From a virus, in the IMG/VR virus record IMGVR_UViG_3300021963_000544, positions 1 to 27,211 of that record: 27,211 nucleotides of DNA, one strand, 5' to 3'. The notes under the pieces were generated by a model. The model was not told the origin of the DNA. It was given only the letters and a program-made list of their open reading frames with translations, and ran no database searches. Position 1 is the first letter of the stretch, and each line of letters begins with the position of its first letter. The position numbers and the translations under genes were made by a program. This document shows positions 15,260-24,030 of the stretch, in pieces.

Positions 15260-15288
15260 TTGACGGCGGAAGAAACTTCCGCTATACG
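15260..15288 (+). promoter_or_regulatory. rightward promoter with operator in its spacer
   Basis: TTGACG (15260-15265), a 17-base spacer and TATACG (15283-15288) give a good sigma-70-type promoter for the rightward operon. The whole spacer is a palindrome: GCGGAAG (15266-15272), AAA, CTTCCGC (15276-15282). A protein bound there would sit between the -35 and -10 boxes and block RNA polymerase. It lies in the 120-base divergent gap, so it could also affect the leftward operon, for which I cannot locate a clear promoter. Confidence 0.75.
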
Positions 15289-15321
15289 TAGTGAACACTG
15301 ATGATTTGGATGGAGATTGAA

Positions 15322-15546
15322 ATGCAGACCGTAGCCCTCAACCGCAAAGGCGTCATGCAACTGGCCTGGGACTTCTATCACCGCTGGGGCGCCGAGATGT
15401 CCTTCGGCGAGTGCCTCGCCCGGGCGTGGTTCAACGCGAAGTATATTCGCTCGAACGTCATCAACCAGAAGCAGACAAAATACTTCAGCGACTACGACCT
15501 GCTCGTTGGCGTGTCGCGCGAAGTGTATGTCGTCGCGCCGCTCTGA
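15322..15546 (+). CDS. small hypothetical protein, first gene of rightward operon
   Basis: 74 residues starting MQTVALNRKGVMQLAWDFYH. Composition: helical, with several Trp/Tyr ('DFYHRWGAEMSFGECLARAWFNAKYIRS') and a C-terminal segment 'SDYDLLVGVSREVYVVAPL'. Not recognised; such short proteins with 'ECLxRAWxNAK' look like small conserved early phage proteins. The start ATG 15322 is preceded by GGAGATTGAA; two upstream in-frame ATGs (15301, 15310) lie at or next to the probable transcript start. It is the first gene after the operator-containing promoter. Confidence 0.6.
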   Translation: MQTVALNRKGVMQLAWDFYHRWGAEMSFGECLARAWFNAKYIRSNVINQKQTKYFSDYDLLVGVSREVYVVAPL

Positions 15547-15586
15547 TCTGATCCGCAACTGAATTGATATTGGTATGGAGATCGAC

Positions 15587-15892
15587 ATGCTTATCGACAA
15601 CGTCAAAACTACGACCATCGACAGCGCGATCACGATGCGCGAGGACCGCCGGGGCGACTGGAGCGAGATCGCCTTATACGTCAGCTTTGCAAACTCATCG
15701 TGGCAAAATCGCACCTGCGCGGCTGTCATCACGCATCCGTGCAAAAAGGCCAAATGGAACCTGTTCCTTGGTCAGGATCCCGTGCGTCGCTTCAAGACGC
15801 GCAGAGATGCAGTCGCCTTCGCCCTCGGCGTTGCGCGCGGCATGCCCGAATATATCAAAGCAATGGAGGAGAGACGTGCCAATCAACATTGA
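15587..15892 (+). CDS. hypothetical early phage protein
   Basis: 101 residues starting MLIDNVKTTTIDSAITMRED. Predicted mixed fold: 'SEIALYVSFANSSWQNRTCAAVITHPCKKAKWNLFLGQDPVRRF' looks like an antiparallel sheet; the C-terminus ('RRDAVAFALGVARGMPEYIKAMEE') is a helix. Not recognised. The leader ATGGAGATCGAC comes directly before ATG 15587 and is identical to that before the gene at 16695, so the inner ATG is taken as start. The end overlaps the next gene by 17 bases. Confidence 0.55.
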   Translation: MLIDNVKTTTIDSAITMREDRRGDWSEIALYVSFANSSWQNRTCAAVITHPCKKAKWNLFLGQDPVRRFKTRRDAVAFALGVARGMPEYIKAMEERRANQH

Positions 15893-16136
15893 CTGGAATG
15901 CATCAGCGTATTTTCCGCCGGAAGGCGAGCGAGAGGAGGACATATCATTGACCGACGAAGAGCTGCGCGCCAGAATTCTGGACGTAAGAGACCAGACAAT
16001 CATGATGCTGCTGAAGGCGGCGCAGAAGCTGGAAAGGGAGCCCGACAACCCGGATCACATCTACCAGATAAACTATTGCGCGAGAAACTACACTGACGCG
16101 CAACTGATCCTGAACCCTAAATTTTTCGGAGATTGA
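15876..16136 (+). CDS. small hypothetical protein, GTG start
   Basis: 86 residues. A strong GGAGGAG lies 4 bases before GTG 15876, inside the end of the preceding gene, so the start is GTG even though the open frame extends far upstream. The protein begins (V/M)PINIDWNASAYFPPEGERE, has an acidic stretch, then a helix 'LRARILDVRDQTIMMLLKAAQKLEREP' and 'NYCARNYTDAQLILNPKFF'. Not recognised; it is an acidic, helical small early protein. Confidence 0.55.
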   Translation: MPINIDWNASAYFPPEGEREEDISLTDEELRARILDVRDQTIMMLLKAAQKLEREPDNPDHIYQINYCARNYTDAQLILNPKFFGD

Positions 16137-16137
16137 T

Positions 16138-16356
16138 ATGAAAAACAAGGATGTCTATTCGCGCTACATGAGCATGTCTGAAAGCAAGCTTCAGCAAGCC
16201 TGTCTTCTGCTGGCGGGAACGCTGCCGCAGGATCCGGCGATAGGCAGGCGGCTCGACATAGCAATCATCGCGCTGGCGAAGAAGATGGAGCAGGATGAGT
16301 TTTATGAATTCATTCGCGGCGTGAGCGACGTTTACAACAGAATGAAAGCCGCCTGA
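16138..16356 (+). CDS. small helical hypothetical protein
   Basis: 72 residues starting MKNKDVYSRYMSMSESKLQQ, predicted three helices: 'ESKLQQACLLLAGTLPQD', 'IGRRLDIAIIALAKKME', 'DEFYEFIRGVSDVYNRM'. Not recognised. It begins 1 base after the previous stop, with GGAGATTGAT directly upstream, so it is coupled to that gene. The spacing of hydrophobic residues suggests a small helical bundle. Confidence 0.55.
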   Translation: MKNKDVYSRYMSMSESKLQQACLLLAGTLPQDPAIGRRLDIAIIALAKKMEQDEFYEFIRGVSDVYNRMKAA

Positions 16357-16366
16357 GGAGGCTGAA

Positions 16367-16585
16367 ATGAACCACGTCAAATTGATATGCGATTATTCGA
16401 CCGACCCGAGCGGCAAGGCCGCTATCCACCGCAAGATGAAGCGCTTGCGGACAGATGAAACCTACAGCGCGGAGCTACGCAGGAAGCTGGTGTTTGCGCA
16501 GCATCGCAGATACCTGTCCGAGGAACCGGTGACGCTGCCGCGCGTGGCGTGGATGGAGCGTCCGGACATCACGCTGGAGTGGTGA
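16367..16585 (+). CDS. small basic hypothetical protein
   Basis: 72 residues starting MNHVKLICDYSTDPSGKAAI, basic, with 'RRKLVFAQHRRYLSEEPVTL' and a Trp-containing C-terminus (RVAWMERPDITLEW). Not recognised. GAGGAGG is 5 bases before the ATG. It is the last gene before a second operator-controlled promoter, so the first unit of the rightward operon probably ends here, although no intrinsic terminator is visible. Confidence 0.5.
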   Translation: MNHVKLICDYSTDPSGKAAIHRKMKRLRTDETYSAELRRKLVFAQHRRYLSEEPVTLPRVAWMERPDITLEW

Positions 16586-16595
16586 CAAAAAAAAT

Positions 16596-16647
16596 CGGAA
16601 CTTTCTTCCAAATAGCTATTGCGCGGAAGAAAGTTCCGTAGTATGTT
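16596..16647 (+). promoter_or_regulatory. second rightward promoter with paired operators
   Basis: TTGCGC (16619-16624), a 17-base spacer and TATGTT (16642-16647) form a moderate promoter placed exactly like the one at 15260. GGAAGAAAGTTCCG fills the spacer (16625-16638), and its exact reverse complement lies upstream at 16596-16609, 15 bases away: a perfect 14-bp inverted repeat whose halves are each GGAA-N5-TTCC. Two dimers bound at both copies could loop or cooperate to repress. Confidence 0.72.
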
Positions 16648-16694
16648 CTGTTCATGGGCGCTGGTTGCCCACGCTGATTGAAATGGAGATCGAC

Positions 16695-16976
16695 ATGTCC
16701 AACCTTGCTTCCCTCGCCGACCGCTACGCCTCCCTCAAGAATGAGATCGACGCCCTGACCAAGGAGCTCGACGCGGCCAAAAAGGAAATCCTCGAGCTTG
16801 GCGTCGAGGAAGTTGTCGGCAACTTCTGCGTCGTCACGATCGGCCTGTCCGAGCGTTCGTCGCTCGACCAGAAAAAGGTCAAGGCGCTGCTGACGCCGGC
16901 GCAAATCACTGAGGCCTCAACGACAACCCTGATCACGACCGTGCGCGTCAAGGCGAAAGTGCCGGTCGCCGCCTGA
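16695..16976 (+). CDS. conserved small phage protein with N-terminal coiled coil
   Basis: 93 residues. Residues 1-40 form a coiled coil (ADRYASLKNEIDALTKELDAAKKEIL), followed by a beta-type segment 'VVGNFCVVTIGLSERSSLD', a helix 'QKKVKALLTP' and 'TTLITTVRVKAKV'. The pattern 'LSERxxLDxKxVKALL ... TxxTTxRVK' is one I recognise in small proteins of many alphaproteobacterial phages; no function is known. Start ATG 16695 follows ATGGAGATCGAC, and the gene is the first behind the second operator-promoter. Confidence 0.65.
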   Translation: MSNLASLADRYASLKNEIDALTKELDAAKKEILELGVEEVVGNFCVVTIGLSERSSLDQKKVKALLTPAQITEASTTTLITTVRVKAKVPVAA

Positions 16977-16983
16977 TTACAGA

Positions 16984-17001
16984 GGGCCGCTTCGGCGGCC
17001 C
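16984..17001 (+). other. GGGCCGC-TTCG-GCGGCCC RNA hairpin
   Basis: A 7-bp perfect stem closed by a TTCG tetraloop (one of the most stable RNA loops), 8 bases after the stop at 16976. No T-run follows in either direction, so it is probably a weak terminator, mRNA stabiliser or processing site between two small early genes rather than a full terminator. Confidence 0.6.
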
Positions 17002-17035
17002 ACACTTCTCGCAAAATGTCATATGGGGATTAATC

Positions 17036-17296
17036 ATGTCTGTATCGAAACCCGCGCTTCAGGACGCAGACGTCCTTGTCCACGCAGAAGGCTTCGCCAC
17101 CATCTGGATGTTTGAGCCCGTCTCTGACGAAGCCGTAGAGTTTTTCGCAGAGAACATCGTCGCCGAGGACTGGCAGCACTTTAGCGGCAAGATAGCAGTC
17201 GACCACCGCCCGGCGCGAGACCTGGCCAATGAGCTTTATGTGCAAGGCTTCCGCATCCTGAACCCGCGCTACGGCTGGTTCGTCGCGGATCATTGA
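17036..17296 (+). CDS. hypothetical early phage protein
   Basis: 86 residues starting MSVSKPALQDADVLVHAEGF. It has an N-terminal region with 'TIWMFEPVSDEAVEFFAENI' and a second half 'HFSGKIAVDHRPARDLANELYVQGFRILN', ending in GWFVADH. The pattern of strand-helix pairs suggests a small alpha/beta protein. Not recognised. The leader ATGGGGATTAATC comes directly before the ATG and is repeated before the clamp gene at 17329; here the ATG of the leader is out of frame. Confidence 0.55.
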   Translation: MSVSKPALQDADVLVHAEGFATIWMFEPVSDEAVEFFAENIVAEDWQHFSGKIAVDHRPARDLANELYVQGFRILNPRYGWFVADH

Positions 17297-17328
17297 TCTT
17301 TCAATCTGTCAAATGGGGATTAATCGAC

Positions 17329-17976
17329 ATGCTGACTTTTGACCTTCGCCCCCTCATGGCCGCCGCAGTCTGCGCCGGCACAGAAGAGACCCGCTACTAC
17401 CTCAATGGCGTTTATCTTGAGGTGACGCCGTTCCACATGGTCTTCGTCGGAACAGACGGCCACCGGCTTGCGGCGCTTCGCACATTCGTGCAGTGGGACA
17501 AAGAGCCCGACGCGCATGACTTCAACATCATCATTCCGCTTTCCGTTATCAAAAAAATCAAGTTCACGAAGCGAGACACGAAGGCGTGCCTGAAAAAGAT
17601 AACGCTTCCCGACGGCGGCGAGGGATACCTGATCAAGCGGCTCGGCGAGCCGGACGCAGACGGCATAACATTCTCGCCGCTCGACGCGACCTATCCCGAC
17701 TGGCGCCGCGTCGTCCCCTCGGATGCGAGCAATACAGGCGGAATGGAGATACAGTTCAACCCGAGATACCTGCATGAATTTTTGAAAATTGGCAAAATCT
17801 TCGGGCAGGAAACCGAATTTTTGTCGGTCGTCAAAAATGACGCCGGTCCCGCGCCAGTCAGCATCCAGCCGGACCTTGAGATTGTTTCCGAGTTGAACCT
17901 TGAATACGCGTTGGTGATCATGCCGTTCAGAAGTTCGGCGGATAAAAAATGGGAAAAGCCGGAGTGGGCAAAGTGA
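17329..17976 (+). CDS. dnaN: short DNA polymerase III beta subunit (sliding clamp)-like protein
   Basis: 215 residues. Order of motifs matches bacterial DnaN: 'TRYYLNGVYLEV' (about 21-32), 'VGTDGHRLAALR' (40-51), 'FNIIIPLSVIKKI' (65-77), 'YPDWRRVVPSD' (122-132), 'FNPRYLHEFLKIGK' (143-156) and 'YALVIMPFR' (193-201) near the C-terminus. DnaN rings (three domains, about 366 residues, dimer) tether polymerase to DNA. Here the first domain of about 120 residues is missing, so a ring would need three copies of a two-domain subunit, like the eukaryotic or T4 clamps. Start: ATG 17329 with GGGGAT 9 bases upstream; the longer frame to 17293 has none. It overlaps the next gene by 1 base. Confidence 0.75.
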   Translation: MLTFDLRPLMAAAVCAGTEETRYYLNGVYLEVTPFHMVFVGTDGHRLAALRTFVQWDKEPDAHDFNIIIPLSVIKKIKFTKRDTKACLKKITLPDGGEGYLIKRLGEPDADGITFSPLDATYPDWRRVVPSDASNTGGMEIQFNPRYLHEFLKIGKIFGQETEFLSVVKNDAGPAPVSIQPDLEIVSELNLEYALVIMPFRSSADKKWEKPEWAK

Positions 17977-18077
17977 TGTCGGACATTTTTGGACTTCTTA
18001 TCGCGATGATGTTTCTGGTCGGAGGCGGCGTTCTCGCCGTCTTCATCATCCTGCTCATGACAGAATGGAGGGACTGA
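17976..18077 (+). CDS. 33-residue single-pass membrane peptide
   Basis: The peptide is MSDIFGLLIAMMF then LVGGGVLAVFIILLMTEWRD, with one hydrophobic segment of about 22 residues. The ATG overlaps the clamp stop (TGATG) and the stop lies 1 base before the next gene, so it sits exactly in an operon slot. GGAG lies about 12 bases upstream, rather far, but coupling would serve. Such phage microproteins are often holin-like, superinfection-related or unknown; here the function is open. Confidence 0.6.
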   Translation: MSDIFGLLIAMMFLVGGGVLAVFIILLMTEWRD

Positions 18078-18078
18078 T

Positions 18079-18279
18079 ATGGTAAGCGGAGCTCCGATCG
18101 GCCGGCTGGAGCCGTGCCACGTCGTCAACATCGAATTGTGGAAGCTGTATTGCTCCCTCGTCGGTCGTCGCCCTGACAATGTCGCCGATCACTGGACGGA
18201 GAGAGACGTCATCATGGCTATCGCGGCGCGCACGGCGCGCGTATCAAGAGAAGGAGGAAACCATGAAGCGCGGATTTGA
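18079..18279 (+). CDS. small hypothetical protein
   Basis: 66 residues starting MVSGAPIGRLEPCHVVNIEL, with a helical core ('WKLYCSLVGRRPDNVADHWTERDVIMAIAARTARVSREGG'). Not recognised. GGAGGGACT precedes the ATG, within the end of the membrane-peptide gene. Its 3' end overlaps the following gene by 17 bases, and the ribosome site of that gene (AAGGAGG) lies inside it. Confidence 0.5.
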   Translation: MVSGAPIGRLEPCHVVNIELWKLYCSLVGRRPDNVADHWTERDVIMAIAARTARVSREGGNHEARI

Positions 18280-18466
18280 AAACAAGGCTTCGCTGACGCC
18301 ACGCGAAAAGATCAAGGTTACATATGCCTACGAGATCATGGGGATTTCCCAGCACGACCTCGCCGCCCTGTTCGAAGTCAATCAGGGACGCGTCGCCGAG
18401 GCCATCCGGGCAATCCTCTACGCCGCCGGCGTGGAGCCGAAAGCGGGTGAAAATGACCCCGTCTGA
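18263..18466 (+). CDS. small helix-turn-helix DNA-binding protein
   Basis: 67 residues starting MKRGFENKASLTPREKIKVT. The segment 'EIMGISQHDLAALFEVNQGRVAEAIRAIL' (about 26-54) is a clear HTH: a first helix, a 'SQHDLAALFEV' turn, and a recognition helix 'NQGRVAEAIRAI'. AAGGAGG lies 6 bases before ATG 18263, an excellent site. It overlaps the next HTH gene by 14 bases. Its position at the end of an operon whose two promoters have palindromic operators makes it a candidate autorepressor. It resembles small Cro/sigma-like HTH proteins; the exact family is not certain. Confidence 0.7.
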   Translation: MKRGFENKASLTPREKIKVTYAYEIMGISQHDLAALFEVNQGRVAEAIRAILYAAGVEPKAGENDPV

Positions 18467-18689
18467 ACTTCGGGCGACGATGAATGAGATTGGGCTGACA
18501 TCGGGGGACGTCGGCTTGATCGCCGGCTGCACGGACCGCCAGGTGCGCTCGTGGCTGTCTGGCTACGCGCCTGTGCCCCGAGCCATGGCGGCCATCCTGA
18601 TCGGCCTGCGAGGCGGGGAAATCAATCGCGACTGGCTCGTTGATGTGGTTATGTCAGAGCTTAGATCGGAAGCCGACGCTCAGACTTGA
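18453..18689 (+). CDS. second small HTH protein, XRE/YdaS-like
   Basis: 78 residues starting MTPSELRATMNEIGLTSGDV. The layout 'LRATMNEIGLTSGDVGLIAGCTDRQVRSWLSGYAPVPRAMAAIL' follows the Cro/CI five-helix pattern: helix 2-turn-helix 3 'SGDVGLIAGCTDRQVRSWLSG' and the typical 'xxPxxMAxxL' end. The start overlaps the upstream HTH gene in another frame; the ribosome site (AAGCGGGTG) is weak, consistent with coupled translation. Two adjacent HTH genes at an operon end recall paired repressor/antirepressor or Cro/CI-type switches. Confidence 0.68.
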   Translation: MTPSELRATMNEIGLTSGDVGLIAGCTDRQVRSWLSGYAPVPRAMAAILIGLRGGEINRDWLVDVVMSELRSEADAQT

Positions 18690-18712
18690 CCATACCAAAG
18701 CCCGCTGACAGC

Positions 18713-18746
18713 AAAAAGGCCCGGGGAGCTACCTCCGGGCCTTTTT
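18713..18746. terminator. strong bidirectional terminator between converging genes
   Basis: AAAAAGGCCCGG (18713-18724) pairs with CCGGGCCTTTTT (18735-18746), a 12-bp stem with A/T ends, so T-runs follow on both strands. The rightward operon ends at 18689 and the leftward gene ends at 18778, so it ends both transcripts. Confidence 0.9.
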
Positions 18747-18777
18747 CTTCGTTTCGCTTACAGGCGCCCCGTTTCTG

Positions 18778-19218
18778 TCAATGTGCGGGGCCTTCTCCCG
18801 CTAAGGGGTCGGGGCCCTCCAGAAACCTGACGCGCGGCAGGGACATGAGGGTCATCCGCCGGCCGGCGTTCCCACCACAGTTGTCGTGATCCCGGATTTT
18901 TTCTCCCACCTCGACGTGCCCGGAGAGCCGGGCGTTGGCGATAACCATTTTCGAGACGCGCTCAATGACGAGCTCTCCGCCGCCGTGCAGGTGAAGCACA
19001 ATCGGCTTCGACTGCAGCGCCTCGTCCTTCGTCAGGTCTTCGTAGCTGTGGCGCGACATGGTTTTGATCGTCTGCCGCGCCTGCCTCGCCGTCTCAAGCG
19101 CGGCGTCCGCCTCTTGCCGCGTGCGGAATGAGCCAACGTAATCGCGCCTGCCGTCGCGCTGCGATATCTCGACAACCCAACGCTGACGCTCTTCCCGAAA
19201 ATAAATCTTGTCCTTCAT
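18778..19218 (-). CDS. AP2/integrase-arm-like N-terminal domain protein
   Basis: 146 residues. Residues 1-48 ('KIYFREERQRWVVEISQRD', 'RDYVGSFRTRQEADAALETAR') follow the three-strand-plus-helix plan of AP2 DNA-binding domains and of integrase arm-binding domains (RWxVEI, then YxGSFxTxxEAxxA). A linker and a beta-rich part ('KPIVLHLHGGGELVIERVSKMVIANARLSGHVEVGEKI') follow, with a Pro/Gly tail. There is no nuclease or recombinase motif. It is the last gene of the leftward block that starts at 21428, two bases from the gene above it. It probably binds DNA, but the role is not known. The start ATG 19218 has AGGAT 7 bases upstream. Confidence 0.55.
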   Translation of the reverse strand: MKDKIYFREERQRWVVEISQRDGRRDYVGSFRTRQEADAALETARQARQTIKTMSRHSYEDLTKDEALQSKPIVLHLHGGGELVIERVSKMVIANARLSGHVEVGEKIRDHDNCGGNAGRRMTLMSLPRVRFLEGPDPLAGEGPAH

Positions 19219-19219
19219 G

Positions 19220-19912
19220 TCAAAATCCTGGTTCGTCGTTCAGAACATCATTTGGCGTCAATTCGCCCCTGAACCCCTCTACGCCATCTATCGGCGGCGT
19301 TGTCTCGTGTATGCCCTCCTCGCTGTCGCCAAGCGGCGTCTGGAGAGGATCGGCGACGCGCGTCTTTGTTCGCATCACTTTGGCGCCGGGGAACTCCGCT
19401 TTCGCCTTGCAGATTTCCGGAAAGGCGGAAATCATATTCGCGATCTCTTCAAGCGTGTAGGCGTTGATCCTGCGCCCGTCGGCGACGACCCTGGACAACA
19501 GGGACGCGTCCTTGACGATGCTGGCGACAACGCCGTCATGCAGCGTCACCTCCCAAATCTCCGGGTCAAGAACCTTTTCGCCGCTTGCTTCTGCAGCCTT
19601 GTCGAGCGCGCGCCACGCAGCAGCCATGCGCCTCGCTTCACGCCGCACGTCTTCCAGATCGCCCTTCCATCGCGCGTTGCTCGTCAAATATCGCTGCCGA
19701 TCGAACTTCTCGCGCAACTCCTGCGACACGAGGAGGCGCAATCGATCGCGCCCCCACTTCAACTCCATCTCGACTTCAAGCGCGTCAGCTTCGTCGAGGA
19801 ACGAGCGCCCGGCGATATACATGCCGGGCGTTTGCATCCACGGGATTGTCGGCGTCGTGACTGCAATGCCTTTGTCAGCTTTCGGAAATTTCGCCGCTGG
19901 TTTGCGCGCCAT
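19220..19912 (-). CDS. hypothetical phage protein
   Basis: 230 residues, not recognised. N-terminus basic (MARKPAAKFPKADKGIA), then 'PTIPWMQTPGMYIAGRSFLDEADALEVEMELKWGRDRLRLLV', a charged helical region (about 70-110, 'DLEDVRREARRMAAAWRALDKAAEASGEK'), 'EIWEVTLHDGVVASIVKDASLLSRVVADGRRINAYTLEEI' and an acidic C-terminus. The combination suggests a protein with a helical middle and two globular ends. GATGAAGAACG precedes ATG 19912 inside the end of the previous gene, with which it overlaps by 38 bases. The context (methyltransferase, AP2-like protein) suggests DNA-related work. Confidence 0.5.
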   Translation of the reverse strand: MARKPAAKFPKADKGIAVTTPTIPWMQTPGMYIAGRSFLDEADALEVEMELKWGRDRLRLLVSQELREKFDRQRYLTSNARWKGDLEDVRREARRMAAAWRALDKAAEASGEKVLDPEIWEVTLHDGVVASIVKDASLLSRVVADGRRINAYTLEEIANMISAFPEICKAKAEFPGAKVMRTKTRVADPLQTPLGDSEEGIHETTPPIDGVEGFRGELTPNDVLNDEPGF

Positions 19913-20192
19913 CGTTCTTCATCTCCATCTCAATGCAATTCAAAACCCACTTCGCAAGAACGGGATCTTTTCGCAAGACCCATTTCCAACCTTCCGTCTT
20001 CGAGTTTTTCCAGTCTCTGAGGCTCCATCCAACCATAAATTTTATTTTCTGCCGTTTCTCTACGCCGAAGTCGTCAGGAAAAGACCGATACCCGACGACC
20101 CAGAAGTTTACCCACTTGCGAACGCCTGCCGGCGCCTGTGGCGTTCGATAGACGCCCACGCCGCCCATGCGGCCAATTTCCCTGTTCGGCAT
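19875..20192 (-). CDS. tryptophan-rich hypothetical protein
   Basis: 105 residues starting MPNREIGRMGGVGVYRTPQA. Unusually Trp- and Lys-rich: 'VRKWVNFWVVGYRSFPDDFG', 'KFMVGWSLRDWKNSKTEGWKWVLRKD', 'AKWVLNCIEMEMKND'. Predicted mostly beta with one helix. Not recognised. It begins 1 base after the methyltransferase stop (TGACATG), so the two are probably co-translated, and overlaps the next gene by 38 bases. Confidence 0.5.
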   Translation of the reverse strand: MPNREIGRMGGVGVYRTPQAPAGVRKWVNFWVVGYRSFPDDFGVEKRQKIKFMVGWSLRDWKNSKTEGWKWVLRKDPVLAKWVLNCIEMEMKNDGAQTSGEISES

Positions 20193-20193
20193 G

Positions 20194-21048
20194 TCAATGA
20201 TCCACGATGTCCATGAGCGCCTTGATTACTTCGGCCGCGAGCGGCGGGACGATGGCGTTGCCGAAGCCCCGCAGTCGTCCCACGCGATTGGGAACCCCAT
20301 CAACCAGCAGACAAAGGTCGGATTTAACGCGCCGCGTTTTGCCGTCGGCTCCCCGTCGCCACTCCACGCCGCTCGCCCAAGGAGCGCGTTCGTCGGCACA
20401 TTCGGGCAAAAGCTGCCGTCCTTGCCATCCCGCGTCGTCGGCGTCGGCCACATCGCCGCTTCGCGCGCATGGATCGGCAGATGGCTGTTGCCGCCGCCCT
20501 TTGTCTTCGTCGTGCGGCCGCCCTCGCCGTCCGAGGCCTTTGGCGTTGGCCACCCAATAAAGTCTTTGCCGGATGTGGGGCGCGCCGACGCCCGCAGCGC
20601 ACAGATCGGCTCCCGCCCCGGCATATCCCACGCCTTCCAGGTCAGCAAACACTCCGGAGAGCCATTCACGTCCAGCCTTGCTCGCAACCTGTTCTCCAAC
20701 GACGACTGCAGGTCTGCACTCGCTGATGAGCCTGAAGAAATCTGGCCAAACATGTCGTTCATCCGCCGTCCCCTTCCCCTTTCCCGCCACGCTGAATGGC
20801 TGACACGGGCATGACCCCGTCCATATCCGCCGATCCGCCGGCCATTCCGCCAACTGCAACGCCCGGCTCCAGCCGGCGATGCCCGCAAAAAAATGATGCT
20901 GCGTGAACCCGCGCAAATCATCCGCCGCAACATCGGCGATCGACCGCTCGTCCACCTCACCCGCCGGAATGAGCTTCCGCCGGATCAATTCCCGCAGCCA
21001 CGCCGCCGCTCGGGGGTCGAACTCGTTGTAGTAAACGCCGCGGGTCAT
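20194..21048 (-). CDS. DNA (cytosine-5) methyltransferase
   Basis: 284 residues. Transfers a methyl group from S-adenosylmethionine to C5 of cytosine in a target site. Motif I 'FFAGIAGWSRAL' (53-64), motif IV 'PCQPFS' with catalytic Cys 82 (81-86), a motif VI region 'VVGEQVAS' where the usual ENV is EQV (119-121), motif VIII 'PHIRQRLYWVA' (157-167) and motif X 'RLRGFGNAIVPPLAAEVI' (258-275). The target domain lies between about 170 and 250 and is short. No partner restriction gene is next to it, so it is likely an orphan phage enzyme protecting DNA from host restriction. ATG 21048 overlaps the upstream stop (TGATG). A possible ribosome site, GGGGGAGG, lies about 6 bases before it. Confidence 0.9.
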   Translation of the reverse strand: MTRGVYYNEFDPRAAAWLRELIRRKLIPAGEVDERSIADVAADDLRGFTQHHFFAGIAGWSRALQLAEWPADRRIWTGSCPCQPFSVAGKGKGTADERHVWPDFFRLISECRPAVVVGEQVASKAGREWLSGVFADLEGVGYAGAGADLCAAGVGAPHIRQRLYWVANAKGLGRRGRPHDEDKGRRQQPSADPCARSGDVADADDAGWQGRQLLPECADERAPWASGVEWRRGADGKTRRVKSDLCLLVDGVPNRVGRLRGFGNAIVPPLAAEVIKALMDIVDH

Positions 21049-21428
21049 CAAGCCGCCTCCCCCGCGTAAATCCGTCCAAGCTCCTCACCGACCCACGCCG
21101 CAATAGCCGGCTCGCGGTCAGCCAAAACGCCCATGCTTCTGTTTCTTGCCACACGGCCAAGCTTAACATTGTAGCCAAGCTGGTAAATCCTTTTCCTCGA
21201 CTGCTTGCGCGCGTCGAACAGCTTGAGCGAAACCCAGTCGCCCTTCCGCCAGTCCCGGAATTCCGAAAGCTCCCACAAGCCGTTGTGCGCCAGAAAAAGC
21301 TCATCGACCCTCACGCGATACTTTTTCTTGCCGACATACCGATACCCCTTGATCGGCAGCCGCTTCGGTTTCTTCCTCCCGGCCTTCTCCCGAACCTCAA
21401 CCATCTCGACCATATCGACCATCTCCAT
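21048..21428 (-). CDS. basic hypothetical protein upstream of the methyltransferase
   Basis: About 126 residues starting MEMVDMVEMVEVREKAGRKK. The N-terminus is a small repeat of ATGGTCGA-type codons, then a basic stretch 'KAGRKKPKRLPIKGYRYVGKKKYRV' and an alpha/beta-looking body ('HNGLWELSEFRDWRKGDWVSLKLF', 'RIYQLGYNVKLGRV', 'PAIAAWVGEELGRIYAG'). Not recognised. Several in-frame ATGs are possible; 21428 was chosen because a GAGATCGAA leader of the recurrent type precedes it. It is the first gene of this leftward block and is downstream of the repeat region. Confidence 0.45.
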   Translation of the reverse strand: MEMVDMVEMVEVREKAGRKKPKRLPIKGYRYVGKKKYRVRVDELFLAHNGLWELSEFRDWRKGDWVSLKLFDARKQSRKRIYQLGYNVKLGRVARNRSMGVLADREPAIAAWVGEELGRIYAGEAA

Positions 21429-21546
21429 TTCGATCTCACTAAAGCAAAAACACACCAACCCTGTCAGTCAAAACCACGTCCGTCAATGGCCAGCGCAGCG
21501 GCCGTGAGCGCGGAGCCTCCGGCGGAGCGCGAGCGCCGCGAGCAAT

Positions 21547-21565
21547 ATACTAATCGTATTAGTAT
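21547..21565. promoter_or_regulatory. perfect 8-bp-arm palindrome (operator-like)
   Basis: ATACTAAT, CGT, ATTAGTAT: a 19-base dyad with a 3-base centre, in the form bound by HTH dimers. It lies about 120 bases upstream of the leftward gene starting at 21428. The sequence differs from the GGAA/TTCC operators, so it suggests a second regulator. Confidence 0.55.
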
Positions 21566-21570
21566 GATCG

Positions 21571-21746
21571 TTCCGTAGTTCCGCATCGTTGTTTTTATTG
21601 AAGAAACGGAACTTGGTTCCGCTGGTTCCGCAAAAAGTGGTTCCGTAGTTCCGTTTCATCTTTACCTTCAATGGTTTGTAGTTCCGCAATCTTTCGTTTT
21701 GCGGAACCTTGCGGAACCTTTTACGGAACCACTTTTCGAGGTTCCG
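21571..21746. repeat. array of twelve TTCCG/CGGAA units
   Basis: TTCCG begins at 21571, 21579, 21617, 21626, 21641, 21649, 21682 and 21742; CGGAA begins at 21607, 21702, 21712 and 21724. Most extend to GTTCCG or CGGAAC. Spacings of 8-10 bases recur. Two pairs make dyads: CGGAAC-TTG-GTTCCG (21607-21621, same GGAA-N5-TTCC form as the operators at 15266 and 16625) and CGGAACC-N9-GGTTCCG (21724-21746). Consistent with iterons or a multi-site operator. Confidence 0.75.
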
Positions 21747-21759
21747 TAAGCCTTTTTCT

Positions 21760-21786
21760 GCCTGTGAGATCTCACGCCTCACAGGC
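21760..21786. other. inverted repeat at the end of the primase-helicase gene
   Basis: GCCTGTGA (21760-21767) and TCACAGGC (21779-21786) are exact reverse complements; the interior also contains the 12-base palindrome GTGAGATCTCAC (21764-21775). It overlaps the stop codon of the leftward primase-helicase gene. No T-run follows on the minus strand, so it is not a standard terminator; it could protect the mRNA 3' end or bind protein. Confidence 0.5.
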
Positions 21787-23947
21787 CGTTCAGGACCTTC
21801 AGGCCCTTCAATTTTGTGCTGCTGTCGCGCACGGCGGTTACGATCACGTCATTGCTAAGCCAGCGCCTGATCATGCTCTCCCCGACGTCGACATCGACGG
21901 CAAATCTGTCCTTGATCAGCCACGGCGCGTAGCGTCCATCCTCGCGCGTCTGCTTGTTGTTGCTCCACGGCCGGCCCTCGTCCCACGCCTTCTGAAGGTC
22001 GCGCAGGATCGCCTTGCAAACGTCCTTTGCGGGCCACTTCTTGCCGTCGACGATCTGGCCGCCCGTCTCCTGCTGGCCGCCAAAGCCCTCTCCGGCGGGC
22101 TGCGCGCGGTCGACAGTGCGCTCGGCGACGAGGGAAGTCTTGCCTATGCCGACGGCCACCTCCGTCAACACAAAGGCCTCCCGCCAGCCATCCCGGGCCG
22201 ACTTGATCTTGCGGGCGACGAGAAACCTCTCGCCCGTCTCCTCGTCGATCTCGATCGAGATCAGGAAGTCAGCGGCGCCGTCGAAGACCGTCGAGCCGCG
22301 CATGCTCGCGCCCGCGCGCGCCGTGTGGTGGACGCCCATGACGGCGCAGTCGAAAGCCTCCTGGATCGCCTGACACGTCTTGATGTAGAGCGTCATGTCT
22401 TTCTGCAGGTTCTCGTCGGCTCCCGGCAACGTCCTCGACACCGTGTCTACGACAACCAGCGCCGGCGGCTCGTCGCCGTATCCCCCCCGCATAGTCCGCA
22501 GCAGCTTCATGACGCACTCGGCGTCCATGAAGTTCACGCTGTCCTTGAGCAGCGAGAAACTGATATCGCCCTCAGTGACAGGCGTCTTGTTTCGCGTTGA
22601 CCACGCCTCGATGCGGAACTTCATGTCGTTCACGCCCTCGCATGAGATGTAGAGGACCGGCCCCTTGCGGCTGATCTTTCGCCCCCACCAGTCCGGGCGG
22701 CCGGTGGCGATCGACAGCGCGAGGCTCTTGGCCACGAATGTCTTCCCCAGCCCCGGCGCGGCAAACAGGAAGCCCAGCGCGCGCTCCATGATCAGGTCGT
22801 CGACCAGATAGACCGGGTCCGGCATGTTCATGATGTCGCGGATGCTGAGCAGCTGATAGACGTCCGCCTCCGGGTCCGCGACCGTGATCGCGTTTCCGGA
22901 AAACCCGGCATCAAAAGGGGACGGGTTTTCTCCAGGGTTTCCGGATAACGGCGCCTCAGCCTTCTTTTGCGGCGGATCACTGGCCGCGCGCGCGATCTTC
23001 TCGTCCCACTGCGCGATCGCCTCCCGCCACTTCTGCGCAAACAGCGTCAGGCCGCGGCCCTCGCGCTCGAGGAGGATGTGGTTGGGGGTGCCGGGCTCGT
23101 GGATGCGGGATTTGACCCGGAGCTCGAACAGCTTGAAGCACTCGCGCATCAGCCGCTGCTGCTCGCCGGGGTCTGGCAGGATCGGGCAATCCCGATAGGC
23201 GTTCACGACCGCGGCGAACACCATGCGATGCATGTAGTCTTCGCGCCCGTCGACGATATTGCCAAAGGCGTCCGTGGCTCTTTCCGGCGTCGGCGTCTTT
23301 TCCTTCGCGCCCGTCGAACCCTCTCCTCCGGTGCCATATTTGTCCGCCAGCGCGCGCACTTCCTCGAGAAGCCAGTCTGGCGCCGTCTCAATCCCGACAT
23401 CGCACGGCTCAAACCCATCGTCCCAGTGGTAATAGCCGCCGCTGTCGTGTTTTGAGGGAGGCAGCATGGCGAAGCCGCCCTCGCCCCGGAAGTCGACACC
23501 GATTGGCGTCTTGGTTGTCGGGAGGCGAACGCCTGCCGGCGCGCGGAAAAAATATTGCTTGCCGCCGCCGCCCGTCGTCTGCGTCGCCGTCTCGAGGAAG
23601 ACGCCGCCGTGGTGGTCGGCGTGTATGCCTTCCCACCAGACATTCGCCTCCGGGTGCTTGTGCGTGTCGAGATCAATGACGAGGAGGTTTCCGGAGCAAG
23701 ACCCGGTGATGACGCCCATATTCTGGCGATTGATGAATTCACCGCCGGCGCCATACCACTGCTCGAACAACTCATCATTGATCAGTTGCTTCTCATGCTC
23801 GCGCCACGGGATTGCCGGGCGCTTGAAGCCTTCGCCTCTTTTTACTTCTGCGGGAGACTTGGCGGGGACAACTTGCAGGCCGCACGATCTATACATCCGC
23901 GCCCATTGTGAAACGGACGCGAAGCCGGCGTCGAAATCTTCTTGCAT
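21779..23947 (-). CDS. primase-polymerase / RecA-like replicative helicase fusion
   Basis: 722 residues from ATG 23947. N-terminal primpol domain (about 1-225): 'MGVITGSCSGNLLVIDLDTH' gives the DxD metal site (Asp 92/94), with 'GVDFRGEGGFAMLPPSKHDSGG' the typical continuation. A linker follows, then a RecA-like ATPase (about 370-600): Walker A 'APGLGKT' (397-403), Walker B 'LVVVDTVSR' (497-505), and 'GVHHTARAGASMRGSTVFDG', as in RepA/AAA_25-type helicases. The C-terminus (about 630-722) looks like a winged-helix module. It would unwind DNA and prime synthesis. The frame stays open to ATG 24019, but the first 24 residues look non-conserved; neither start has a good ribosome site, unusual here, so translation may be regulated (see leader elements). 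Confidence 0.88.
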   Translation of the reverse strand: MQEDFDAGFASVSQWARMYRSCGLQVVPAKSPAEVKRGEGFKRPAIPWREHEKQLINDELFEQWYGAGGEFINRQNMGVITGSCSGNLLVIDLDTHKHPEANVWWEGIHADHHGGVFLETATQTTGGGGKQYFFRAPAGVRLPTTKTPIGVDFRGEGGFAMLPPSKHDSGGYYHWDDGFEPCDVGIETAPDWLLEEVRALADKYGTGGEGSTGAKEKTPTPERATDAFGNIVDGREDYMHRMVFAAVVNAYRDCPILPDPGEQQRLMRECFKLFELRVKSRIHEPGTPNHILLEREGRGLTLFAQKWREAIAQWDEKIARAASDPPQKKAEAPLSGNPGENPSPFDAGFSGNAITVADPEADVYQLLSIRDIMNMPDPVYLVDDLIMERALGFLFAAPGLGKTFVAKSLALSIATGRPDWWGRKISRKGPVLYISCEGVNDMKFRIEAWSTRNKTPVTEGDISFSLLKDSVNFMDAECVMKLLRTMRGGYGDEPPALVVVDTVSRTLPGADENLQKDMTLYIKTCQAIQEAFDCAVMGVHHTARAGASMRGSTVFDGAADFLISIEIDEETGERFLVARKIKSARDGWREAFVLTEVAVGIGKTSLVAERTVDRAQPAGEGFGGQQETGGQIVDGKKWPAKDVCKAILRDLQKAWDEGRPWSNNKQTREDGRYAPWLIKDRFAVDVDVGESMIRRWLSNDVIVTAVRDSSTKLKGLKVLNGL

Positions 23948-23953
23948 TGCAGG

Positions 23954-23996
23954 GGCTCTTTGCTTTCGTGGGGAAATATCAAAATATTTAAGAGCC
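23954..23996 (-). promoter_or_regulatory. structured leader next to the primase-helicase start
   Basis: GGCTCTT (23954-23960) pairs with AAGAGCC (23990-23996), and inside it AAATAT (23974-23979) pairs with ATATTT (23984-23989) around a 4-base loop. In the minus-strand mRNA this nested structure ends 6 bases before ATG 23947, and it would lie within the coding region if ATG 24019 were used. It may control initiation. Confidence 0.4.
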
Positions 23997-24000
23997 GCCC

Positions 24001-24030
24001 TTGAACGCCTGCCTCGCATTGGCGTATAAA
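24001..24030 (+). promoter_or_regulatory. plus-strand promoter opposite the primase leader
   Basis: TTGAAC (24001-24006), an 18-base spacer and TATAAA (24025-24030). It points rightwards, against all genes of this block, and is followed about 40 bases later by a textbook terminator on the same strand. A chance match cannot be excluded. Confidence 0.45.

Follow-up and report, generated by a model that had tools for sequence, protein, structure and literature searches.

The window analysed here is the whole 27,211-nucleotide stretch of IMG/VR virus record IMGVR_UViG_3300021963_000544 (positions 1 to 27,211), a record that encodes its own terminase and portal. Its rightward early operon has two promoters with inverted repeats in their spacers and ends with the gene of a small helix-turn-helix (HTH) protein, h78; further right, a repeat array lies beside a leftward primase-helicase gene (Table 1). 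A preliminary description had proposed that a single GGAA-N5-TTCC element joins the early promoters to this array and is bound throughout by one regulator or initiator. We consider it quite probable instead that the locus holds two separate DNA-recognition systems, namely a feedback loop formed by h78 and its promoter operators, and a helicase-linked array that would serve as origin iterons.

Table 1. Positions of the promoters, predicted operators, genes and array in the window
Feature	Position	Strand	Remarks
Early promoter P1	15260..15288	+	-35 TTGACG, 17-nt spacer, -10 TATACG; same promoter and dyad in G1, G2
Predicted operator, P1 spacer	15266..15282	.	GCGGAAGAAACTTCCGC, GAA-N5-TTC dyad
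Predicted second operator O2	16597..16609	.	28 bp upstream of O1
Early promoter P2	16619..16647	+	-35 TTGCGC, spacer, -10 TATGTT; precedes gene 16695-16976
Predicted operator O1, P2 spacer	16625..16637	.	GGAAGAAAGTTCC; conserved in G1, G2, G003, G007
h67	18263..18466	+	second small HTH-like protein; on present evidence not the operator binder
h78	18453..18689	+	78-aa XRE-type HTH protein, last gene of operon; proposed autorepressor
Terminator-like hairpin	18713..18746	+	closes operon after h78
Iteron array	21570..21746	.	12 CGGAAC sites, in either orientation; putative replication origin
Primase-helicase	21779..24019	-	Prim-Pol PF09250 and AAA_25 PF13481
Primase-helicase C-terminal region	21782..22105	-	predicted winged helix; candidate iteron-binding domain

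Promoter dyads in the window and its relatives

All four sequences named in the preliminary description are present, two of them one base away from the positions given there: GGAAGAAACTTCC begins at 15268 (reported as 15267), GGAAGAAAGTTCC lies at 16625 with its exact reverse complement GGAACTTTCTTCC at 16597 (reported as 16596), and CGGAACTTGGTTCCG lies at 21607. As described, dyads fill the 17-nt spacers of two promoters (TTGACG-GCGGAAGAAACTTCCGC-TATACG and TTGCGC-GGAAGAAAGTTCCGTAG-TATGTT), and the 177-bp array contains 12 CGGAAC half-sites, two in its dyad and ten elsewhere. CGGAA-N5-TTCCG occurs four times in the window versus 0.07 expected, and GGAA-N5-TTCC nine times versus 0.64 expected; five of the nine copies (1017, 1323, 6326, 8523, 20966) lie outside the claimed sites, and their centres are unrelated.

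Close relatives were found in IMG/VR, G001 (hereafter G1, 16.9 kb) and G002 (G2, 61.5 kb), with helicases 84-88% identical. More distant ones came from an IMG/VR scan for a dyad followed by a -10-like element, without a protein query, which returned 62 stretches, most of them apparently by chance. Five of these, G003-G007, combine TTGACA-dyad-TATAAT promoters with homologues of h78 (43%) and of the proteins of 16695-16976 and 18079-18279 (G003, G007, G004 and G006 correspond to L168, L169, L119 and L142). Both early promoters and their dyads are conserved in G1 and G2, and CGGAAGAAACTTCCG of the P1 operator is identical in two promoters of G003 and G007. The start-to-start spacing of O2 and O1 is 28 bp in the window, G1, G2, G003 and G007, though the intervening sequence differs. 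The three operator matches of G003 are all within its early operon, and one of them lies ahead of the same gene in both phages. From sequence, we predict that operator function belongs to the GGAA-N5-TTCC dyads at 15268, 16597 and 16625.

The same arrangement recurs across a family of uncultured phages, in 1.0 Mb of helicase-carrying loci on partial contigs, some of the loci overlapping or near-identical. A GAA-N5-TTC dyad occupies the -35/-10 spacer of 57 promoters there, compared with 1-7 in composition-preserving shuffles. When all arm triplets at spacings of 3-8 were ranked (384 classes), GAA-N5-TTC came first with 73 matches against a median of 1, and most dyads of the runner-up classes CGA-N7 and GGA-N7 are these same ones in a register shifted by one base. 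The promoter before the orthologue of gene 16695-16976 holds the dyad in the window, G1, G2, G003, G008, G010, G011, G015, L026, L027, L030 and L036; in the distant relatives GAA-N5-TTC is kept while flanking and central bases vary. LexA-type boxes were considered for these dyads, but their spacing differs.

h78 as the candidate autorepressor

The predicted structure of h78 (predicted local distance difference test, pLDDT, 95) consists of five helices and places residues 28-36 at the recognition position. Its nearest solved structures in Foldseek are Aca1, Aca2, Aca10 and other XRE proteins including the 434 repressor, at modest E-values. The protein has no Pfam match and no NCBIfam model near its cut-off. 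Among PDB sequences its best match is Aca2 (E 0.005), which is weak, and because this match is not significant we do not claim membership in the Aca family.

Co-variation of protein and operator was examined in 22 non-redundant h78 families by scoring 58 nine-column windows in a partial Mantel test that controls for the similarity of the rest of the protein. The three best windows cover the recognition helix and track operator similarity (r 0.39, p 0.0005). Residue 32 is the best single column: Q32 always accompanies CGAA, R32 or N32 accompanies GGAAG, and S32 mostly accompanies AGAA; among the Q32 proteins, GAAT is paired with N26 and GAAA with V26. Since the operator co-varies with the recognition helix, h78 is likely the autorepressor that binds the promoter dyads of its own operon. 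A host protein might bind them instead, for the promoters look sigma-70-like and host factors hence act there; this is very unlikely, because operator differences among related phages parallel those in the recognition helix of the phage protein.

The mechanism that we propose is a negative feedback loop of the Aca/Cro kind. As a dimer, h78 would bind the GAA-N5-TTC dyad between the -35 and -10 elements of both promoters and, at P2, would also occupy the second site upstream. Accumulated h78 would then block RNA polymerase and switch early transcription off. The idea in the preliminary description that the rightward operon is repressed, through its promoter dyads, by an HTH protein encoded at its end is retained in this form as very probable, with the second of its two candidates (18453-18689) in the role.

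The other candidate, h67, is HTH-like as well and adjoins h78 in the same operon. We nevertheless regard it as extremely unlikely to bind the operator: it has no tblastn match in the examined regions of the operator-carrying G003, G007, G008-G011 and G015, and it was rejected as being missing from relatives that keep an identical operator. It was likewise not found in the examined regions of G004 and G006. The operators are accompanied only by h78 and, with variable conservation, by the neighbours 18079-18279 and 16695-16976.

Two further genes were noted in the window. Within the early operon, 17293-17976 encodes a short protein that matches PF02767, the central domain of the DNA polymerase III beta clamp. 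The product of 2590-2982 resembles a GroES-type co-chaperonin by eye, and a groeS-like gene is annotated in MW202675.1, which by its terminase (63%) is the nearest annotated phage. The helicase of MW202675.1 differs from that of the window, and neither h78 (by profile), nor such a promoter dyad, nor an array (by the k-mer method) was found in it.

The helicase-linked array: one recognition system or two

The primase-helicase gene runs from 24019 to 21779, so that the array lies downstream of its stop codon. Against the 12 CGGAAC sites observed, 1000 dinucleotide shuffles of the 320-bp intergenic region had 0.38 on average and at most 4. Half-site spacings (33, 8, 15, 9, 9, 29, 8) are the same in the window, G1 and G2, with AT-rich gaps between half-site groups by eye, and the 20 bp that the two ends of G2 have in common are located within the array. 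An open reading frame covers it on the minus strand (21483-21782), but G1 interrupts this frame and G2 shifts it; as reading frames differ between such close relatives, the array is non-coding.

Arrays with a 9-10 bp iteron occur across the helicase family, either right after the 3' end of the helicase gene or a few kb beyond it. Beside the same helicase the iteron reads CGGAAC (window), GCGGAAGT, GCGGAGGT, GCGGAGAT or GCGGGGGT (G003, whose helicase was located by profile search), and further consensus forms are TGCGGAGGTT, GGCGGAGGTA, GCGGAAGTA and GCGGAGATA (RHph_N65). Matches in bacterial assemblies were limited to four contigs, binned as Opitutae or Alphaproteobacteria and possibly misbinned phage; all four of these later-taken loci have a CGGA-type array near the helicase.

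The array is probably the replication origin, by analogy with known layouts; its position 3' of the initiator gene and its conserved iteron spacing make this plausible. Its iterons would be bound by the replication protein itself, perhaps by the C-terminal winged helix of the primase-helicase, which is modelled with moderate confidence as H-H-H-E-E with a core pLDDT of about 75-88. Alternatively, the array might be a protein-binding region of another kind, one that serves packaging or partition or that regulates the leftward genes downstream. The helicase stop and a leftward promoter-like sequence do flank it, and a dyad and a strictly conserved GC-rich block adjoin it; however, it tracks the helicase gene across relatives, its iterons change between helicase lineages, and the arrangement matches the origins 3' of rep in phage-inducible chromosomal islands (PICIs; PMC6092414). 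We give this alternative a small but appreciable chance.

Several other features of these regions were recorded. The window, G1 and G2 have an identical GC-rich 51-bp block (21489-21539 in the window) beside the array, with differing flanks; in an IMG/VR scan for exact copies it was recovered only from the contigs of these three, and G003 has a different GC-rich block near its array. Between block and array lies the near-perfect dyad ATACTAATCGTATTAGTAT (21547-21565), and a different dyad, TTATACATTAAGTATAA, occupies that place in G2. In L176 (11322-11399) and L031/L032 a second repeat cluster, CCGTTAA / ACGGGTA, lies directly 3' of the helicase, with the GCGGAGGT array ~2 kb beyond it. An IMG/VR scan for CGGAAC runs returned both relatives and unrelated contigs. 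CGGAAC arrays adjoin unrelated primase genes in L019 (80-301, 3' of a 916-aa gene product) and L018 (6067-6353, 5' of a 787-aa one), which suggests that GCGGAAC-type iterons arise repeatedly, and in L020 (2298-2378) and also L021 the repeat run falls within a Mu-type-transposase-like open reading frame.

Whether operators and array belong together is decided by G003. This phage and G007 keep the operators of the window at the same places, yet their helicase-linked array is GCGGGGGT. The C-terminus of the G003 helicase ranks with the most divergent in the alignment (28% identity). Other members have operators GCGAATTTAGTTCGC or CAGAAATAAGTTCTG, and other families GCGAATT or CAGAAAT operators, together with GCGGAGGT arrays. 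EBPR siphovirus 5 and RHph_N65 have arrays, without such promoter dyads in the regions examined. Within the window itself, the array sites are all GGAAC and both P1 arms are GGAAG. The array and operator motifs therefore do not change together: an operator kept beside a changed array indicates that each recognition system drifts on its own, and that both contain a GGAA core is most likely a coincidence. A single motif for all sites was rejected because of G003 and the other members; the GGAA-N5-TTCC element of the preliminary description therefore fails as a common link, and binding of its operon repressor to the array is not supported. A motif resemblance inside one genome can mislead until relatives are compared.

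There are observations on the other side. Both elements of the window contain GGAA, one array pair has operator-like geometry, and pairing each phage's own iteron and operator gives slightly greater similarity than permuted pairing (p 0.036, without control for ancestry), an excess driven by the window's clade. One regulator or initiator that binds both promoter dyads and array and so couples early transcription to replication is, in our judgement, improbable. The array pair with operator-like spacing is present in all three close relatives (CGGAACTTGGTTCCG in the window, CGGAACCAGGTTCCG in G1, CGGAACTAGGTTCCG in G2), and for this reason we keep a minor variant in mind, to which we assign a similarly slight chance: that in the window's clade the elements converged on a GGAA core and h78 also binds the array, at least its CGGAA-N5-TTCCG pair. 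Such cross-binding would couple early shut-down to replication control, a link absent in other family members.

Several points weigh against our preferred reading of an h78 feedback loop and a separate set of origin iterons. Some columns elsewhere in h78 (43, 52, 62) correlate with the operator as well as those of the recognition helix do not alone, and shared ancestry, which can inflate partial Mantel tests, is thus not fully excluded. Many h78-family groups (e.g. TTRSVFNW, THRHGRKW) have no GAA-N5-TTC promoter in the DNA examined, and such a promoter is present in only one of the four loci from bacterial assemblies. Some helicase loci lack an array by the method used. Binding of the array by the helicase is suggested by position and fold, and the winged-helix matches of the C-terminal model in the PDB are weak.

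Comparison with known systems

Repression in Aca systems works through an inverted repeat in the core promoter, and some promoters have a second repeat (PMC9410906). The h78 loop resembles those of Aca1, Aca2 and Aca10 in that a small XRE-fold HTH protein is encoded at the end of the operon that it would control, with an inverted repeat inside the core promoter and, at one promoter, a second repeat outside it. It differs in the weak sequence similarity of h78 noted above, in the lack of an identified anti-CRISPR gene (no co-occurrence test was made), and in that several early promoters per phage carry the operator in phages that appear lytic. With Cro and CI of the 434/lambda type, h78 shares the XRE fold and palindromic operators that overlap early promoters, whereas the operators here are single dyads inside spacers and not tripartite. 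A lysogeny switch was considered and set aside: five near-complete genomes have no Phage_integrase match (serine integrases and other integrase types were not searched), which is consistent with lytic phages. As h78 has no match among 50,697 phage records, these operator-repressor pairs are apparently undescribed. The natural pairs, at least 22, in which recognition helix and half-site co-vary are a ready-made set on which to test how small HTH repressors alter their specificity.

The helicase-linked arrays form a second such set. In the pri-rep-ori modules of PICIs (e.g. SaPIs, EcCICFT073) the origin iterons lie immediately 3' of the primase/initiator gene (PMC6092414), as do the proposed ones of the window. 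Unlike these satellites, which use a helper capsid, the phages studied here are tailed phages with terminase and portal genes, and their replication protein combines Prim-Pol with AAA_25 beside iterons of about 9-10 bp, mostly of the GCGGA type. This suggests that tailed phages, too, can have the origin 3' of the initiator gene, as phage satellites do. The archaeal plasmid pRN1 encodes the Prim-Pol protein ORF904 and has an essential 100-nt stem-loop origin region 3' of the gene (PMC4234260). That element is a stem-loop whereas iterons are found here, and in both a Prim-Pol replication protein is followed directly by a non-coding element, which in pRN1 is required.

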